NCBI GenBank assembly: GCA_019637875.1
Contig: JAHBUW010000022.1
Location: 1-39,925 of the forward strand
Direction: 5' to 3'
Length of the DNA stretch: 39,925 nt
Origin: Pseudobdellovibrionaceae bacterium
GTDB lineage: Bacteria > Bdellovibrionota > Bdellovibrionia > Bdellovibrionales > Bdellovibrionaceae
Below, in pieces: positions 10,711 through 39,868 of the stretch. The notes beneath the pieces were generated by a model. The model had not been told where the DNA came from. It was given only the letters and a program-made list of their open reading frames with translations, and made no database searches. A program made the translations under genes and the position numbers. Each line of letters starts with the position of its first letter. Within the stretch, counting starts at the first letter, position 1.

Positions 10711-10837
10711 CCCCTCACCGGAGCTTAAGGACCTCCATTGTGGGCGACGTGGCGGCTAACCTTTGGGCGAAAAGGACGCTTCCGGTCACCTCCTTTTCTT
10801 CAGGGTTTTGGCCACGCGATTGCACTTTCATCCTTAT

Positions 10838-11920
10838 ATGACGTCCTCTTCACGCTGCTTGATCCATGCGCTGCTTCTGATGACCTTTTCCGTCGCCCTG
10901 TCGGCGCACGCGACAACCGTTAAGCTCCCGCCGCCCGTTGAGGACTACGTCGAAAAGCGTCTGCGGGATTGCATGATCTATGAAGACAAGGCCCTCGAGG
11001 TGTGCGAGGTGGAGCTGCGCCGACGCTACAAGAAGGTCCCTTACCTGAGCGGCGCGCAGTTTCTTCAACGTATGGCCGCGAACAAAAACTATCTCAAAAG
11101 CCTCAGCGTCGTCAGCGAAGCCCAACTCGAAGAAATTACGCAGACTTTACGCGCGCTGCCCATCGACTACTTTGAAGAGATCGATGGCTGTATGGGCCGG
11201 GCCGAAACGATGTCATACGTCCTGGCGAAAAAGCAAATTTTCGTCGGCAACGTTTTCGCGCGCGGCATGATCCGGGTCGAATCCCGGCACCTGCCGGTCA
11301 CGCCCGCCACCATCCAGTGGGGATTCCACGTCGCGCCCTTCATCATGGTGAAAAACGCGAACGGCAAGATCTATCCCTACTCTTTGGATTTGACGCTTTT
11401 GAATGGCACGCCCCGTCCCCTCAATGAGTGGCTCGCAAAACTGGAAGCCGCCGGCGGCTCCCTGCTCGAGCTGCATGCGCTCAAATCATTCGAATCCTCG
11501 CCAACCGAACCGGGCGAAGACGTCGTCCGCTCATGGAAGGACCGCGAAGTCAGTCTGATCGAGGCGCGCCTGCGGGAGCCTCCGTACCGCACGATCCACC
11601 GTGGATCGCCCTTACGTTTGGACTTGGCCGAAAGCTTCCTGAAAACTCTCGAGGCGACGCCGCTGTTGATCAGCAATCCTTACGAACGTCAGTACGAAGA
11701 TCCTGAAGCCACGTCCTTCGCGAAATCCTTCGGCGACGCCAAGCTTTCCGAAATCCGTGAGCGCATCCGCACGGAGCTCCGCTGCGAACAGAATCAAAGT
11801 ACCGAATGTGCGGTCTACTACCGCGACGAAGCCGATCACGGCTTCTGCCGGCTCCAGATATCCCTTCCCCGCACCGAAGAAGGTCCGCTTCGCGTCGCCT
11901 GTTTTCCATTTGATCGCTGA
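10838..11920 (+). CDS. Secreted protein-glutaminase-like protein
   Basis: The ATG at 10838 was chosen because it begins a signal peptide (MTSSSRCLIHALLLMTFSVALSAHA); the frame is open 25 codons further up, but that extension is hydrophilic and unlikely. Of the 360 residues, the middle matches the pattern of protein-glutaminase / glutamine-deamidase domains. IDGCMGRA gives C118, QWGFHVAPFIMV gives H164, and YSLDLTL gives D184, a papain-like Cys-His-Asp triad. Such enzymes deamidate glutamine side chains on proteins. The C-terminal 150 residues are unrecognised and contain a further group of cysteines. The gene is divergent from the 690-residue protein and stands upstream of a secreted metallopeptidase-like gene with a 120-base gap. 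Enzymatic activity is inferred from motifs only. Confidence 0.7.
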   Translation: MTSSSRCLIHALLLMTFSVALSAHATTVKLPPPVEDYVEKRLRDCMIYEDKALEVCEVELRRRYKKVPYLSGAQFLQRMAANKNYLKSLSVVSEAQLEEITQTLRALPIDYFEEIDGCMGRAETMSYVLAKKQIFVGNVFARGMIRVESRHLPVTPATIQWGFHVAPFIMVKNANGKIYPYSLDLTLLNGTPRPLNEWLAKLEAAGGSLLELHALKSFESSPTEPGEDVVRSWKDREVSLIEARLREPPYRTIHRGSPLRLDLAESFLKTLEATPLLISNPYERQYEDPEATSFAKSFGDAKLSEIRERIRTELRCEQNQSTECAVYYRDEADHGFCRLQISLPRTEEGPLRVACFPFDR

Positions 11921-12040
11921 CGCTGGCCGTCCCGGGGCGCTCAAGTTTGGCCTTTCCAGGAAATGAACGGCAATCTATTCCTTCCACGGCTTGGCCCGAA
12001 ATTTGGAGAAGGCGCCTGTCACCACTGGAAGGAGTCGACC

Positions 12041-12709
12041 ATGACATTGAGTCGTTGGAAATCCGTCGCGTTGATCGGCGGACTGTTATTGAGTGCCCCC
12101 TCGGTTTTCGCTCTTGCCGTCAAGCATGACAGCGTCGCCGCAAAGGGTTGTTTGAATATCGTCAGCCTGAGTCAGGCCGAAAGCGCGCTCGCGCGTTTCA
12201 ACCTGACGACCGAAAATGCGAAGGAGTCTGAAATTCGCGCGTTGGGTACGGGACTGATGTGGATCGAGGATCTCAACGGCGATCGCCCTCTCGCGATGGC
12301 GAAGGGTCCGGGCTCACGCCCCTATCCGTTCATCTTCAAAAACAATGGTAAGAACTCGCGCCAAACCGGATCGGGAATCGAAATCGCCCGTCAAGGGGCG
12401 AAGCAATTCGGTTCGAACGTCGCGCAACTCGTGCATGAGCTGGGTCACTTGGTCGGTAATCAAGGCGCCTACGCCATGTACCGTCAGCAGGTCGGCTCTG
12501 CTCCTTGCGTTGTCTCGGGATACTCGGATGACAAATTCAATGAGCAGTTCGCGGAAGTTTTCGCGGCCTTCGTGACCAAACCCGAACTCATCGCGGAAAG
12601 CAAATCGGCGGCATGCAAGAAGGCCTTCAAGTTCTTCTCGCAGACCCTCTTCGCCACCGGCGAACGCGCCCGTCAGTGCAAAAACAATGATGGGATTCTC
12701 GATCAGTAG
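12041..12709 (+). CDS. Small secreted HExxH metallopeptidase-like protein
   Basis: The start at 12041 has an AAGGAG site (12029-12034) and begins a signal peptide (MTLSRWKSVALIGGLLLSAPSVFA); an in-frame ATG at 11963 lacks both. The 222-residue product contains VHELGHLVG with H132, E133 and H136, the classic zinc-peptidase motif. NEQFAEVFAAF follows some 35 residues later, where E168 or E172 could be the third ligand, as in gluzincins. Four or five cysteines suggest disulfides in the mature exported protein. No closer family was recognised and the substrate is unknown. A bidirectional terminator lies directly downstream. Confidence 0.78.
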   Translation: MTLSRWKSVALIGGLLLSAPSVFALAVKHDSVAAKGCLNIVSLSQAESALARFNLTTENAKESEIRALGTGLMWIEDLNGDRPLAMAKGPGSRPYPFIFKNNGKNSRQTGSGIEIARQGAKQFGSNVAQLVHELGHLVGNQGAYAMYRQQVGSAPCVVSGYSDDKFNEQFAEVFAAFVTKPELIAESKSAACKKAFKFFSQTLFATGERARQCKNNDGILDQ

Positions 12710-13180: not shown

Positions 13181-14710
13181 TTAAGCGGCATTGGATTCGC
13201 TGATCGTACCGGGCTCTTGGGGCCACTGCTTTTCCAGGATCGGGACTGCGGCGTCCGTCAAAGTTTTCAGGAAAGGCGAGCCACGACGGGGACGAGCTTT
13301 CGTCAGGTATTCACCGAAGAGCGCACGCCGCTTCTCGGGCATCTGATTTTGCAAACGCTCCAGGACGGCCGCCGGACCGACCCAGCAATCCGCCAGCGAC
13401 TGCGCCGAGACCGAATTCATGATCTTCACGCAATCTTCCGCCGGCAGAAGCGCCAACCACACAAGCGAAGGCAGTTTCCGCGCCACCTCGGCCGACACAA
13501 GATAAGGCTGCTCGAAGAGCAACATTTCGTCGTCTTCCGAAAGGGACGAAATCTGCAGCTGCATCGGGAGCGCCCGGGCCGCCGACTTCACCGTCGGAAT
13601 CTGCACGGCCGAACCGCGCGCGCCGCCGCGATTGAAGTCGATACGATCGCGTAACGAGACGTTCACCGACTCTTTACGCATGGACGAGATCCCCCACCAG
13701 ACCAATTTGTTGGTGGAAAGAACGCGCATCAAATCGTCGTTCGAAATATTTTCGAGCGGCGTCGGATATAGATAGAACGGATCGTTGTGGTAACGCTCTT
13801 CACCCGCTTGGGTCAGCGAGAAGTGCTCAACGTAGGCCCCCAACTCAGGCCAAGACTGCAAAAGCTCCGTCTTTTTGGAGGGGGAAATCTGCGCCCAGAT
13901 CCAGTTCGCGTAAGCGTCCTTTTCGCACCAGTAGCAGTCCGAAAGGATCGCTTTAAGCGAAACCACGCCCATATCGTCCATCGTCGGTCCACCCGCGATC
14001 GCGCCGGTCCCCGCACTGCCCCCACCACGCGTCGTTTCGCGACTCGCCGCCGCCAGTTCGGGCAACATCGAAGGCGCATTACCTCCGCCCGTGTCGATTT
14101 TGATTTCACCGATTTTGGTCGCCAGTCCCTTGAACGCGCGCATCAGCATCGCGATCATCATCACACTCACGACGAGGATCACCGAACCCACGCTTCCCGC
14201 CAAGATATAAACCAGGCGGTAAAGATGTTCGGAGTACTCCATCGAAATTTTTTGCAAACTATCGGCCTGAATATTGGCGGACTCTTTGCGTTTCTTCAGA
14301 ATTGCGGAAGTCGCGTCGTCGATTTTCGAGATCGTAACTTGGCCCTTCTTGGTATAGGGTTTGACCGCGGATTCGATGATGCGCGAGACCTCATCCGGAA
14401 AATTTTCTACCGAGGAATAGATTTGTACACGTACGGAATCGACATCCGAGTCTTCTACGCGGCCCGCCTGCTCGACGGTGAAAAATCCGAAAACCTCCAT
14501 CCCCGTTACGGGCAGATTGGTATTCACACGACGCGGAGTCACGTTCACGATGACCATCGCTTCCGGATCCACCGGTTGCACGATGCTCTTGATCTTAATC
14601 GTCAAGTTCGTCTCGAGCTCCATGACGGTGCTCAGGGGCGCCGCCAAGGCGATCTGGGTGCTGAGGAACAGCGCCGCCATCATTATGGGTTTCCATCGGA
14701 CGCGGATCAC
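13181..14710 (-). CDS. Inner-membrane protein with periplasmic domain and FliG-like cytoplasmic region
   Basis: The 509-residue protein begins with a signal or first membrane helix (about 7-24), then an alpha/beta periplasmic segment (about 25-160) and a strong membrane helix (about 163-190). A glycine-rich linker (205-245) follows, with a helical region to the end. In that region LENISNDDLMRVLSTNKLVWWGISS and LVWLALLPAEDCVKIMNSVS resemble the helical FliG middle/C domains that contact MotA; the match is by eye and weak. The layout (two membrane helices, periplasmic domain, FliG-like cytoplasmic tail) recalls a small FliF-FliG fusion. The start is GTG within GTGA overlapping the motB stop, with a GGGAGGA site inside motB. 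A terminator follows directly. It is probably the cytoplasmic rotor or coupling partner of the MotAB pair, which is inference. Confidence 0.55.
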   Translation of the reverse strand: MIRVRWKPIMMAALFLSTQIALAAPLSTVMELETNLTIKIKSIVQPVDPEAMVIVNVTPRRVNTNLPVTGMEVFGFFTVEQAGRVEDSDVDSVRVQIYSSVENFPDEVSRIIESAVKPYTKKGQVTISKIDDATSAILKKRKESANIQADSLQKISMEYSEHLYRLVYILAGSVGSVILVVSVMMIAMLMRAFKGLATKIGEIKIDTGGGNAPSMLPELAAASRETTRGGGSAGTGAIAGGPTMDDMGVVSLKAILSDCYWCEKDAYANWIWAQISPSKKTELLQSWPELGAYVEHFSLTQAGEERYHNDPFYLYPTPLENISNDDLMRVLSTNKLVWWGISSMRKESVNVSLRDRIDFNRGGARGSAVQIPTVKSAARALPMQLQISSLSEDDEMLLFEQPYLVSAEVARKLPSLVWLALLPAEDCVKIMNSVSAQSLADCWVGPAAVLERLQNQMPEKRRALFGEYLTKARPRRGSPFLKTLTDAAVPILEKQWPQEPGTISESNAA

Positions 14711-15411
14711 GGATCCTCCCTTTTCAGACTCACCACGATCGTCAGGCTACGGGTATTACGCGAAAATTCCGCGCCCCCCTGAGCCGACAAAGTCGCCGGC
14801 TTGATGCCCATTTCAATCGCCCGTTGCAATGCGCGCGAAGCGCGCAGGGAACTCAAATCAAAGTTATTGGCGAGCGTACGTCCCCGGCTCGCCCGCAATT
14901 GTTTTTCATCGGTGTGACCCACGAAAGCGACGTCCACGCCGGCCTGGTAGGGCTTCAGGCGATCGATGACTTCATCGAGGCTTTTCATCATGTCACCCGT
15001 GAGCATGTACTTTCCGGGACCGTAGATGTTCTCCGGGAAATGCAGGATGAGCTTGCGCCCTTCCACGCGGGTCTCGGTCTCGAAACCCGGAAGTTTCATC
15101 ACGAATTTCTGCAGGCCTTCGAGGCCTTCCGCCGCTTGGCCGACCTTATCGCCCACGCGGACCTGTTCCACGACGTTACCGCCCGCCTTCTCGCGGTCAC
15201 CCGCGGCGGCTTTTTTTCCGGACAGAAGATCGATCAAATCGTCCTTTTCGGACTTGTTATCAATCGAGAAGAACACGACGAAGAAAGCCAGCAGGACCAT
15301 CAACATGTCCGCGTACGAGACCGCCCAGGATTCCTCGGCGTGAATCCCGGAGTCACCGCTCGTCCTCCGCTCGACGCGGAGTTTTCTGGGCTTTTTACGC
15401 AGCTCGCTCAT
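14707..15411 (-). CDS. motB: MotB-like stator protein with OmpA-like peptidoglycan-binding domain
   Basis: The 234-residue product starts with a basic cytoplasmic tail. One membrane helix follows, WAVSYADMLMVLLAFFVVFFS, in which D35 sits where MotB carries its proton-carrying aspartate. A plug/linker follows, then an OmpA-like domain with VAFVGHTDE and NNFDLSSLRA, the residues that hold diaminopimelate. The usual NRRVEI end of that domain is changed to NTRSLTI, so one basic residue is missing. The start overlaps the MotA gene by 17 bases and has a GAGGAG site within it. MotB would fix the stator to the cell wall. Because it stands in an operon with no flagellar genes, it may power a non-flagellar device. 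Confidence 0.88.
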   Translation of the reverse strand: MSELRKKPRKLRVERRTSGDSGIHAEESWAVSYADMLMVLLAFFVVFFSIDNKSEKDDLIDLLSGKKAAAGDREKAGGNVVEQVRVGDKVGQAAEGLEGLQKFVMKLPGFETETRVEGRKLILHFPENIYGPGKYMLTGDMMKSLDEVIDRLKPYQAGVDVAFVGHTDEKQLRASRGRTLANNFDLSSLRASRALQRAIEMGIKPATLSAQGGAEFSRNTRSLTIVVSLKREDP

Positions 15412-16096
15412 TCAGCTCCTCGCGAATCAAAATGACCGGTTCACCCTGATTGATCAAAAGCAAAACTTCATAGATGTTTTCCAGAACGCGCACGTGACGG
15501 ACGTGACGGACGTGCAGCCGATCCGCTAAAGGCGCGAGCAGTCCGTTGGCCACGATCAACCCGAAGAACGTCGCGGTCATGGCGGCCGAGAGGGAGGAAC
15601 CGATCTTGTCGCGGTTCTGATCGAGGGCCGAGAACAGGCTGATCATACCCATGACCGTACCGGTCATCCCCAGAACCGGCGGATATTTCGCCAAGTTCTT
15701 CAGGGCGTGAATCGCGTCGTTTTGCTTCGATTCGAGTTCACGGCGCTTCTGCGAAAGCAGCACGATGAAAAGATCAGGATCGATACCCTGTCCCCACAGC
15801 TCGTGCGCGTATTCGATCATCGGATGCGTGTGACCCGCGACCTCTTTCGAGCGGTCTTCGGCCAGCTTGACCAACTGCTCCTGAAAATCTTTGACGCTTT
15901 CGTCGCCTTTGACGGCGTCAACGAAGGTGTGCCAAAGCGACTTCATGATTCCCAACGGCGTCGAGAAAATCGCGATGGTGAAGGTTCCCCCGATCACGAG
16001 GATCATGGAGTGCATGTTGATATAGTCTTTCGTCGAACCTTCGAGCGAAGCGATGATCACACCGAGCGTCAGTAAAAAGCCGATTCCTAAGCTCAT
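15395..16096 (-). CDS. motA: MotA-like proton-channel stator protein
   Basis: The 233-residue product is a clear MotA/PomA-family protein with four membrane helices: HSMILVIGGTFTIA near the N terminus and PPVLGMTGTVMGMISLFSAL followed by AMTATFFGLIVAN near the C terminus. The cytoplasmic loop (about 50-145) is of normal MotA length. The two functional prolines at the membrane ends are present (PPVLG, APLAD). It forms a proton path with MotB. After the last helix the protein has HVRHVRHVR, encoded by a 9-base tandem repeat at 15493-15514. The ATG overlaps the stop of the TPR gene by four bases, with a GAAGGA site. Confidence 0.92.
   Translation of the reverse strand: MSLGIGFLLTLGVIIASLEGSTKDYINMHSMILVIGGTFTIAIFSTPLGIMKSLWHTFVDAVKGDESVKDFQEQLVKLAEDRSKEVAGHTHPMIEYAHELWGQGIDPDLFIVLLSQKRRELESKQNDAIHALKNLAKYPPVLGMTGTVMGMISLFSALDQNRDKIGSSLSAAMTATFFGLIVANGLLAPLADRLHVRHVRHVRVLENIYEVLLLINQGEPVILIREELNERAA
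15493..15514 (-). repeat. 9-base tandem repeat inside motA (HVR x3)
   Basis: The unit cgtgacgga is repeated about two and a half times with period 9 and keeps the frame. It encodes HVRHVRHV just after the last membrane helix of the MotA-like protein, where other MotA proteins have a mixed charged segment. Confidence 0.8.
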
Positions 16097-16698
16097 TGTC
16101 CTTCTCCGCCCAACGATTTGATGAACTTACGACCTTCTTCAAAGTCCGGGTGCGCTTTCAAGCCAATGCTGGCCGCCGTGCGCGCGTCGGACTTACGCCC
16201 TTGTAGGAAGTAGACCGAGGCCTTGATGAATTCGAGAAATGCGACCTTGGGGTATTTCGATTGCAGCTGCTGCACGCGCGTCATCGCGTTGTCGTAACGT
16301 TTCATGCGCAGCTCGGTACGCACGTCCTCGATACCTTGAACGATCTCGGAAACGTACATGCTGATTTCACCTTGCACCAAGTGCGCGGTCGCGTCCTTGA
16401 TCGTGGGCGGATTCAACTTCAACTCACTAAGACCGTCTTTGATCGGCACGATCATCATGGGAATATGGCCGTCCAACTGAACGATCTTCGGCTCATTCAA
16501 AGTCACTTCGATCGATTCCTGAGCTTTCAGGGGCGTCTTCGTTTGCGAGACGGGATCGAACACTTCACCCACGGCCGGAACTTGCAGCTTCACCTGGAAT
16601 GTCGAACTCAAAAAGGCCTGTGCGGGAGTCTGCGTGAAAAGCGCAGCGCCCACCATCATCCAAATTAAGGATCGCAAAGAAGAATGCGTTTTCGACAT
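16093..16698 (-). CDS. Secreted TPR-like protein, first gene of the MotAB operon
   Basis: The 201-residue product has a signal peptide ending at AQA (about residue 28). A beta-rich middle (about 30-105) follows, and then helical repeats from about 110 to the end. RYDNAMTRVQQLQSKYPK and FLQGRKSDARTAASIGLKAHPDFEEG read as TPR motifs. The ATG at 16698 has a GGAGG site seven bases upstream (rc of 16706-16710). The gene overlaps motA (ATGA), so it is very likely part of the same machine, probably a periplasmic scaffold next to the MotB cell-wall anchor. TPR proteins have similar scaffolding roles in Tol-Pal-type systems; its exact family was not recognised. Confidence 0.75.
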   Translation of the reverse strand: MSKTHSSLRSLIWMMVGAALFTQTPAQAFLSSTFQVKLQVPAVGEVFDPVSQTKTPLKAQESIEVTLNEPKIVQLDGHIPMMIVPIKDGLSELKLNPPTIKDATAHLVQGEISMYVSEIVQGIEDVRTELRMKRYDNAMTRVQQLQSKYPKVAFLEFIKASVYFLQGRKSDARTAASIGLKAHPDFEEGRKFIKSLGGEGQ

Positions 16699-16910: not shown

Positions 16911-18419
16911 TCAGCCTTGAAAGAAGGCCTTCAGGCGACGAATGAAAGCGGACAACCAAGTGGCGCCGCTGTCCTGAATCTTTTGATCGAGAACTTTTTC
17001 GACGTCATTGGCGCGCACGACGCCTTCGATCATCTGCCCCTCGATCCACAGCGTGGGATTCGCGAGGATGCCCACGCCGCGAGCGTAAGCCAAATGCTGG
17101 TTCACGAGTTCGCGGCTGCGGCCCTCGAGTAGACACTTCTTGAACTCGTCCACGTCGAGCTTGTTCGCCCCCACCCATTCGTAAAAGCGGTTTTCATCGA
17201 CCTGTCCGCGAAGTTCCGCCAACTGATTCAGGAAGTCGATGGACTTGCCGCGCTTTTGCCCGTCCACGCACAACGAAGCCTCGCTGAACAAGCGCGCGAT
17301 GCCGTCGCCCGTATTGAAGTTGTGGATGACGTTGAGCTTCAGGTAGCCATCGTGCTCTTTCATGATATTTTTGAGCAACTTCAAGGTCTCTGGGCAATCC
17401 GGGCAGGTCGAACCGGTGAACGCCACCACCGAAACCGGAGCGTCCCCGTAACCGAGCACCGGCTGCCACTCCCCGCTCAATTTCAAATTCGCGTGGGGAG
17501 GTTTCACCGAAGTCTTGATGGGACCGTCGACCAGATGATCGGCGACGTACTGCTCGATCGCGCGCTGTTCTTTACGCCCTTTCATCGATGCCTGCAGATT
17601 CAATCGGGCCGCGTCGTCAAAGTCGTTCAGACTCGAACCGATGGACTTCAGGTAGGTTTCCATCTCGGCCGTCGTGGAATCGAAATTTTTCCCGGCGAGA
17701 ATTTTCTGATTCACGAAGTCCTGCAGGTTCGAACCCTGCTTTTCGGCCTCGGCGTTCACCAAGATCCGCGCAAGCTGCTGCTGCATTTGCGACATCGTTT
17801 CAAGGTAACGACGTTGCTCGATCGACTGCATCAGTCCGTGCTGCATTTCGACATCGTCGCGAGTCACGCGTACGCCGCGACCCTCGGCCAAAAGATTCGC
17901 ATCCTCGGTCGTCGCGTATTCGATCCCCAATCCCGCGACCGGCTGACGATCGAAACGGATCAGAATGTCTTTCAACGGCGTTTCACTCTCGGGAAGGAAA
18001 ATCTTTACGACCGCTCCGCTCGCCCGCGGCGCAGCGGGCGCCGCCGGACGGGTCCGTCCGTGGCGAACTTCGACTTTTTCGGTCTCAACCTTCGCCGCCG
18101 CCGGGGCCTCTTCCACCACTGACGCGCTGGCACCGCGGTTCAATTGCCACTTCTCGACGACTTTCAGATACGCCTGCCCGATCAGAAAATCGTTCGTCAG
18201 GCGATCAAGATCCTTGATGACTTGGGACTTATCCAGAATTTGCGCCTTGGTCACTTTGATGCCGTTCACTTCCGCAAGCAGCGCCGGGTCGCCCAAATCC
18301 GCAGATACGAAGCGTATCGGCGCGTCTTCCAAAGCGAAGCCGGTCTTTTTACCGCCGGTGCAGCCCGCGATCAAAGCCATTGAAGTCACGGACAAAGCAA
18401 AACGCATTGAGTGGCGCAT
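16911..18419 (-). CDS. Lipoprotein with C-terminal DsbA-like thioredoxin fold (CPDC)
   Basis: The 502-residue protein has a lipoprotein signal (ALIAGC, C20). A helical N-terminal part (about 40-300) follows, broken by an Ala/Pro/Glu-rich linker (about 96-135) and resembling a chaperone of the SurA/parvulin N-domain type. The C-terminal domain (about 315-490) is thioredoxin-like: VVAFTGSTCPDCPETL holds the active pair C339/C342, and ILANPTLWIEGQ supplies the cis-proline P455, as in DsbA/DsbC. It should act in the periplasm as a disulfide oxidase or isomerase. It lies 106 bases downstream of the giant cysteine-rich repeat gene on the same strand, with no strong terminator between, so co-transcription is plausible. 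A purine-rich site (aaggggga) precedes the ATG. Confidence 0.8.
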   Translation of the reverse strand: MRHSMRFALSVTSMALIAGCTGGKKTGFALEDAPIRFVSADLGDPALLAEVNGIKVTKAQILDKSQVIKDLDRLTNDFLIGQAYLKVVEKWQLNRGASASVVEEAPAAAKVETEKVEVRHGRTRPAAPAAPRASGAVVKIFLPESETPLKDILIRFDRQPVAGLGIEYATTEDANLLAEGRGVRVTRDDVEMQHGLMQSIEQRRYLETMSQMQQQLARILVNAEAEKQGSNLQDFVNQKILAGKNFDSTTAEMETYLKSIGSSLNDFDDAARLNLQASMKGRKEQRAIEQYVADHLVDGPIKTSVKPPHANLKLSGEWQPVLGYGDAPVSVVAFTGSTCPDCPETLKLLKNIMKEHDGYLKLNVIHNFNTGDGIARLFSEASLCVDGQKRGKSIDFLNQLAELRGQVDENRFYEWVGANKLDVDEFKKCLLEGRSRELVNQHLAYARGVGILANPTLWIEGQMIEGVVRANDVEKVLDQKIQDSGATWLSAFIRRLKAFFQG

Positions 18420-39211: not shown

Positions 39212-39868
39212 ATGCGATTTCGTCTCACATTGGTTTGCGGTCTTACGCTTTTTTGCGGTGCCTTCGCTTTCGCGCAGGATGAAAACGTCGCGCCCCCCGT
39301 TCCCGAAACGACCGCGCAGTCGGCGGGCGAACGCCCGCAAATCCGCGCCCAGATTAGGAAAAAACCGCGGAACTCGAGCTTCCTTTTTGGTTCGGAACTC
39401 ACCCAAACTTCCGGCACCACGGGCTCGCTGGCCGGAATCGGCCCGCGCGTCGGATTCGAGTACGCGATCTCCGAAAAGCTGAGCCTCTCGACCAACATCA
39501 CTTTCGCTTTGCAAGCCACCGGCAAACCGGGCGCCTACTTCTACTCCGGATTCACCGGAGCCGTTCGCTACGCGCTGTCGGGATCGAACCTGATGGACCG
39601 TACGGAAATCACGGATGGGCAAACGACGTTTGTCGAGTATTCGCGGCTGAAGCGGGAGCGCCTACAACTCGTCGCCGGAATCGAGCAGCTTTTCCTCAAC
39701 GGCTCGAATAACATCTTCCCCGCGATCGGTTTCACCGCCCAAGGCGTCTACTCTTTCCAGATGCTCGACAATGACTGGGAATTCGATGGACGGATGTCAC
39801 AGCTGCTCGCGGGCGATCGATCGTTCATGTTGATCGGCTTGGGACTCTCGATGAGTTTCAGCTTCTAA
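39212..39868 (+). CDS. Small outer-membrane beta-barrel protein
   Basis: The 218-residue product has a signal peptide (MRFRLTLVCGLTLFCGAFAFAQ). A short Pro/Gln/Arg-rich stretch follows, and then alternating hydrophobic/polar strands ending in LSMSFSF. The C-terminal phenylalanine and preceding alternating aromatic pattern fit the BAM recognition signal of outer-membrane barrels. The size suggests an eight-stranded barrel. It is divergent from the giant lipoprotein and may be regulated with it; whether it acts as a porin, an anchor or a structural protein is unknown. No clear ribosome-binding site precedes the ATG, yet it is the only start that keeps the signal peptide. Confidence 0.75.
   Translation: MRFRLTLVCGLTLFCGAFAFAQDENVAPPVPETTAQSAGERPQIRAQIRKKPRNSSFLFGSELTQTSGTTGSLAGIGPRVGFEYAISEKLSLSTNITFALQATGKPGAYFYSGFTGAVRYALSGSNLMDRTEITDGQTTFVEYSRLKRERLQLVAGIEQLFLNGSNNIFPAIGFTAQGVYSFQMLDNDWEFDGRMSQLLAGDRSFMLIGLGLSMSFSF

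Follow-up and report, generated by a model that had tools for sequence, protein, structure and literature searches.

A MotAB operon with a fused FliF-FliG-like protein in Bdellovibrionota, linked to giant surface lipoproteins, as a candidate non-flagellar rotary motor

What does a flagellar-type stator do where the other flagellar genes are missing from its surroundings? This question is raised by an operon on contig JAHBUW010000022.1 (assembly GCA_019637875.1) of a Pseudobdellovibrionaceae bacterium, the 39,925 nucleotides of which make up the window analysed here. The genome is 3.98 Mb in size and belongs to the order holding Bdellovibrio. The operon, hereafter the cassette, encodes a secreted tetratricopeptide repeat (TPR) protein, MotA, MotB and a membrane protein of 509 amino acids (aa). 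Here, we report that this arrangement recurs across the Bdellovibrionota, that the 509-aa protein appears to combine a FliF-like with a FliG-like part, and that the cassette is linked to genes for giant surface lipoproteins and an outer-membrane barrel. On balance these observations lean towards the cassette being the core of an ion-driven, non-flagellar rotary motor that acts on surface adhesins.

All four genes lie on the minus strand and overlap. The gene for the TPR protein (16698-16093; an open reading frame (ORF) of 201 aa with a signal peptide) shares 4 bases with that of the MotA-type stator subunit (16096-15395; 233 aa, MotA_ExbB E 2.9e-17), which shares 17 bases with that of the MotB-type subunit (15411-14707; 234 aa, MotB_plug 1e-10, OmpA 6.6e-6), and the latter again shares 4 bases with the gene for the 509-aa protein (14710-13181). 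Reading frames and overlaps agree with the initial annotation, made from the DNA sequence, which had also pointed to D35 of MotB and to an absence of flagellar, chemotaxis and Tol genes nearby; none of these was recognised in the remaining window. Two terminator-like hairpins flank the cassette, one of 16 pairs upstream of the TPR gene (16888-16853, minus strand) and one directly 3' of the last gene (13169-13151, minus strand). Since the window harboured 11 terminator-like sites against 7.5 expected from shuffles, these hairpins are notable only for where they lie and, in the case of the first, for how long its stem is. A scan for sigma-70 promoters detected none.

The four-gene order is not a local coincidence, a possibility ruled out by its recurrence in 26 loci, and as it recurs in unrelated genomes it cannot be ascribed to chance. 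When 368 Bdellovibrionota genomes were searched by profile, 32 had relatives of the 509-aa protein (the 509-family), with strong matches in 29; carriers are named as Bdellovibrionales, Bdellovibrionaceae and Bacteriovoracia metagenome-assembled genomes. The order TPR-MotA-MotB-509 on one strand was found in 22 loci, the window included, and in a further four MotA-MotB is divergent from a TPR-509 pair that has stayed together. Exceptions were found at contig edges and in one locus in which no TPR gene was detected (L085). The TPR gene is the conserved first gene of the cassette; the TPR match of the 201-aa protein itself is weak (Pfam, 0.0034), and its relatives at other loci are lipoproteins.

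Queried alone against Pfam, NCBIfam and PDB sequences, the 509-aa protein gave no recognisable relatives, and its nature was approached through predicted structures and a chain of profiles. A signal peptide is followed by a ring-building-motif fold (about residues 23-130), a transmembrane (TM) helix (about 165-190) and a FliG-like region (about 245-498). The full-length AlphaFold2 model reached a predicted local distance difference test (pLDDT) score of 72 and a predicted template modelling (pTM) score of 0.37. In this model the periplasmic domain has the order alpha-beta-beta-alpha-beta ahead of the TM helix, with an insert carrying LPVTG (consensus LPGT), and its best structural matches are EscJ (Z 10.2) and FliF (Z 9.9). 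Predicted alone, the C-terminal region reached pLDDT 90, and in structural re-alignment its first 14 rows were all FliG (Z 8.4-5.3), among them the FliG bound to MotAB (8ucs_H, Z 8.3). These were followed by MgtE, a known FliG-like fold, and then by unrelated folds at Z 3.1 or below.

A search for FliG_C in the relatives uncovered a second branch of the family (branch II, or 580-family), consisting of proteins of 536-602 aa in Bdellovibrio bacteriovorus HD100 and others, whose loci likewise carry MotA, MotB and a TPR lipoprotein, here of PEGA-TPR type. FliG_C was detected in 12 of 14 members and FliG_M was matched as well (Pfam). Two intermediate proteins of 574 aa (L100, L101) link this branch to that of the 509-family (branch I). 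In hhalign comparisons the two families matched one another in the N-terminal part at 95.7% (E 8.5e-9) and in the C-terminal part at 94.6-97.8%; the 580-family in turn matched FliG at 98.2% (E 5e-14) and, with its N-terminal part, the C-terminal half of FliF at 64-75% (best 74.7%, E 2.6e-5). Among PDB sequences the 580-family profile found FliG (E 2e-27) and FliF (E 2.6e-5), and one 509-family homolog (G061) by itself passed the FliG_C cut-off. A short chance resemblance to FliG is ruled out by these profile matches together with the structural re-alignment. Judged from profiles and models, the 509-aa protein can be firmly placed as a sister family of FliF-FliG fusion proteins. The FliG-like tail proposed by the initial annotation is thereby supported, and the other feature on which its reading had been staked, the four genes remaining together in relatives, was found as well. 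Its description of the protein as a cytoplasmic partner needs correction; as the periplasmic half has a FliF/SctJ ring-building fold, the protein looks more like a rotor.

In HD100 the branch II cluster occupies 2913420-2920190 of the minus strand (L144:9421-16191), in the order MotA, MotB, PEGA-TPR lipoprotein, barrel, TPR protein and a 577-aa FliF-FliG fusion, the gene for which spans about 2913420-2915153, with two barrel-like proteins in all. From gene numbering, its stator genes at 2.919 Mb are presumably motA2-motB2 (Bd3021-Bd3020). Clustering of the putative motA2-motB2 with such a fusion raises the possibility that MotAB2 may not primarily be a flagellar stator. In open-licence papers we found no description of Bd3015-Bd3022 or of FliF/FliG-like proteins with MotAB outside the flagellum.

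The stator genes are well preserved. MotB D35 aligns with D32 of E. coli MotB and is an aspartate in 29 of the 29 homologs that have this region; D35 is also the single residue from which a proton-driven character of the motor, as proposed in the initial annotation, might be deduced. The OmpA-like wall-binding domain of MotB has kept GHTD, N183 and R190, and P140, T176 and P189 of MotA align with P173, T209 and P222 of E. coli MotA. Over their full lengths, the MotA family profile has flagellar MotA/PomA structures as its best matches and the MotB family profile matches flagellar MotB/PomB structures. Altogether, the homology of rotor and stator parts to their flagellar counterparts is almost certain. 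Our maximum-likelihood MotA tree has references from E. coli and the Bdellovibrionota but no Agl proteins, and its deep branch order is tentative. It unites the window MotA with the other branch I cassette MotA in one clade (99/92), and a flagellar clade (98/98) comprising the E. coli type and a second Bdellovibrio type excludes cassette MotA. TolQ/ExbB proteins are far removed (100/100, branch 3.4), and a mislabelled TolQ/ExbB is ruled out by the tree and by the best family matches. A recent classification splits MotAB relatives into flagellar and generic types (PMC12505986); with its shortened loop and FliG-like partner, cassette MotA seems by sequence to fit neither group cleanly. The genome of the window encodes 11 MotA/TolQ/ExbB proteins in total. 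One further locus, L113 at a contig end (G000:C17), encodes a MotA cut by that end and a 441-aa MotB-like protein; this MotA forms a long branch in the tree and is assignable to neither the flagellar nor the cassette types.

Beyond the operon, a gene at 18526-38976 (minus strand) encodes a giant surface lipoprotein of 6816 aa with a lipobox. Its stalk consists of Ig-like repeats (HYDIN/ASH by Pfam), about 48 in number and each 114 aa long, and its tip is an RCC1 propeller; a tandem repeat scan of the gene found none at the DNA level, though the repeats are evident in the protein. Neighbour clustering placed giants beside 23 of the 33 loci in branch I and 7 of the 14 in branch II, and 15 control loci (236 kb) contained neither giants nor barrels. 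The giants of cassette loci have an N-terminal lipobox and long Ig-like, fn3 or PKD stalks, and their tips are exchangeable between RCC1, laminin-G/ConA-like, NHL and FG-GAP domains. Divergent from the giant gene, the window encodes an outer-membrane beta-barrel-like protein of 218 aa (39212-39868, plus strand), and most branch I loci have a relative of about 200 aa directly 3' of their rotor gene. The barrel profile gave 28 strong matches in 25 genomes, every one on a contig carrying the rotor gene; this co-occurrence is partly circular, the profile having been built from cassette neighbours, and its independent part is the lack of strong matches in genomes without the rotor gene. Since the giant and the barrel form part of the module, the four genes are not complete by themselves, and the complete, self-contained motor of the initial annotation has to be enlarged accordingly. 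Between the giant and TPR genes a DsbA-like (Thioredoxin_4) lipoprotein of 502 aa is encoded (16911-18419, minus strand). A relative holds the same place in L026 (phmmer E 2.4e-129), and L082 has a protein alike in position and size.

Shortly after the lipobox cysteine, 13 of 21 giants carry the motif C-x(3-8)-[VILAF]-[DF]-x-[LAVI]-[FILAV], against 2 of 49 other lipobox ORFs; the motif had been picked out by eye from the set in which it was then counted. Examples are CSAGSDSVDKLIG, CSSSGDSIDKLFG and CSDGEKVDELF; the giants of the window, L027, L028 and L031 have the motif in common and otherwise differ in repeats and tips. One of the two other ORFs encodes a 929-aa neighbour of MotB in L029, which lies outside the BLAST-linked giant family and carries CSDGSGVDKLF, the sole out-of-sample support for the motif. 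A role as docking signal would be speculation.

How could these parts work together? Wall-anchored stators, MotA5-MotB2, would conduct ions past MotB D35, and with their cytoplasmic face they would engage the 509-aa protein at its FliG-like domain; an action of MotA on this domain we consider likely. The 509-aa protein would probably form a ring by means of its FliF/SctJ-like periplasmic domain, in which case torque generated in the cytoplasm could cross the inner membrane and reach the periplasm. From there, the TPR protein in the periplasm and the barrel in the outer membrane may pass the motion on to the giant lipoprotein, which would work as a long adhesin with an Ig stalk and an RCC1 tip. 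The proposed chain from ion flow to the surface would thus run from MotAB over the FliG-like torque domain, TM helix, periplasmic ring domain, TPR protein and barrel to the giant. For the giant being the part that is moved we see about even chances. The likeliest outcome would be the movement of surface adhesins, whether for gliding or for walking or pulling on a surface or a prey cell, and the more specific assignment to gliding, like the driving of a surface stalk that the initial annotation also suggested, is put forward tentatively.

Several observations weigh against this reading of the locus. Compared directly by profile, the 509-family and FliG gave a non-significant 4-5.5%, and the FliG homology consequently rests on the fold together with the profile chain by way of the 580-family. 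The E-values obtained with Foldseek were individually weak (best 0.015-0.08), so that the case depends on fold, profile chain and gene context agreeing with one another, and KH-like domains of ribosomal protein S3 match the N-terminal fold nearly as well as the ring proteins do (Z about 9.5). E. coli MotA R90 and E98 are aligned to gaps in all 29 homologs, which have a shorter loop; without counterparts of these residues, contact with the rotor would need other charges. Three f14 loci (in two f14 genomes) have a rotor gene and no adjacent MotAB, some branch II loci, that of HD100 included, have no adjacent giant, and a barrel of 200 aa is too small to export one.

The cassette might instead be an auxiliary flagellar module, in which MotAB serves the polar flagellum as an alternative stator, with the 509-aa protein as an accessory ring that aids the engagement of this stator or regulates it. 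This is the main rival on the flagellar side, since motAB2 of HD100, in the sister branch, is reported to contribute to swimming: going by the title under which PMC11323537 and PMC10225642 cite Morehouse 2011, three motAB pairs of HD100 contribute to the motility of its single flagellum. One of the three, assigned as motA2-motB2 by position, lies in the branch II cassette. FliM was present in all 32 genomes tested, every strong cassette carrier among them; with FliM in 318 of the 368 genomes of the phylum, however, flagella in all strong carriers say little, and their co-occurrence with the cassette was weak among near-complete genomes (hypergeometric p 0.10, against 0.009 for all genomes, neither being corrected for kinship). 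The genome of the window encodes one true FliG as well as FliM and FlhA and is therefore taken to be flagellated in the usual way; these genes are on another contig than the cassette, and no FliM/FliN, export gate, rod, hook or flagellin gene was found in the window or among recurring cassette neighbours. The genes that are linked encode giant adhesins and a barrel, cassette MotA is outside the flagellar clade and lacks the R90/E98 loop, and the cassette seems to bring a rotor of its own, anchored in the membrane and equipped with a FliF-like domain, so that a flagellar accessory role is rather improbable. Three further FliG_C-like proteins occur in the genome of the window; small proteins of this kind (105-233 aa, no evident membrane segment) are encoded at L103:7691-8392 (G000:C5), L104:8053-8553 (G000:C10) and L102:8051-8368 (G000:C8), outside flagellar and Mot loci, and matches of about 230-280 aa are found in nearly all relatives.

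Energised envelope transport is another use to which MotAB and the 509-aa protein could be put, with MotAB driving the 509-aa protein to push or pull on partners in the periplasm and thereby delivering the giant to the surface or holding the envelope together in the manner of TolQR/ExbBD. MotA and TolQ/ExbB belong to one superfamily, and the linkage to a giant lipoprotein, a DsbA-like lipoprotein, a periplasmic TPR protein and a barrel would suit such a role. Cassette MotA nevertheless branches next to flagellar MotA and is not of TolQ/ExbB type, TolQR/ExbBD systems are not known to have a FliG- or FliF-like part, and the intact wall-binding domain of MotB would fix the stator instead of moving it; we regard transport as unlikely. 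The device could also sense surface contact through the giant adhesin, as a mechanosensor or ion-gated signalling device that does no mechanical work. That stators of flagella report load is known, and in Bdellovibrio cyclic di-GMP is altered by mutations in the stator (PMC11323537), but the recurring neighbours of the cassette include no signalling gene and this explanation is very improbable.

Among the known systems closest to the putative adhesin motor is the flagellar motor core of MotAB, FliF MS-ring and FliG. The stator is of MotA/MotB type with ion-site aspartate and wall-binding domain, and the rotor-like protein is predicted to have the FliF ring-building fold, a TM helix and a FliG-like torque region. 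Unlike in the flagellum, the FliF and FliG parts are joined in one polypeptide, the filament and the intervening structures are missing from the locus, and a giant lipoprotein and a barrel are linked. SctJ (EscJ/PrgK) ring proteins of type III secretion systems appear to share the periplasmic fold, but are not known to have a FliG-like cytoplasmic domain, and cassette loci have no export apparatus. Bacteroidota gliding also combines an ion-driven envelope motor (GldLM) with a giant adhesin, SprB, and the cassette with its giant may be likened to it. SprB has about 6,500 aa, close to the giant of the window, and GldL/GldM are described as non-homologous to MotAB (PMC13104615). In contrast to that system, no type IX secretion gene was seen at the cassette, and the giant here is a lipoprotein. 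In the Myxococcota, the AglRQS/Glt machinery proposed for gliding likewise uses an ion-driven motor of the MotA/TolQ superfamily, although its TolQ/ExbB-like relatives are far from cassette MotA. To our knowledge it has no FliG/FliF-like rotor. Relatives of AglS/AglQ are also present in B. bacteriovorus.

The gliding motor of Bdellovibrio is stated to be unidentified (PMC13104615). Since AglS (Bd0838) mutants of HD100 are attachment-defective (PMC6561027), an Agl-type motor exists in this strain too, and the cassette would not be the sole candidate for gliding. It is a possible, if doubtful, proposal that a stand-alone flagellar-type stator with a fused FliF-FliG rotor, lacking flagellum, export gate and filament, drives an SprB-sized adhesin across the outer membrane as a gliding or prey-handling motor of the Bdellovibrionota. 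More generally, the cassette appears to be a variant of the flagellar-type rotary motor, with a real chance that it will turn out to be a separate kind of machine. Both FliG and FliF are counted among the flagellar parts, FliF having a relative in type III secretion. If the motor reading is correct, MotAB with a fused FliF-FliG would constitute a minimal motor of rotor and stator, open to study in isolation from the other flagellar components, for which the branch II relative in the genetically tractable HD100 is well placed, and it would bear on the origin of the flagellar motor: the cassette MotA lineage, branching beside the flagellar stators, may preserve a trace of an early use of this motor outside the flagellum.

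Two secreted proteins are encoded on the plus strand on the far side of the cassette from the giant. The product of 10763-11920 has a glutaminase/glutamine deamidase domain (PF18626, E 1.8e-14), and that of 11963-12709 (248 aa, no Pfam match) harbours a HELGH motif and is possibly a zinc metallopeptidase.

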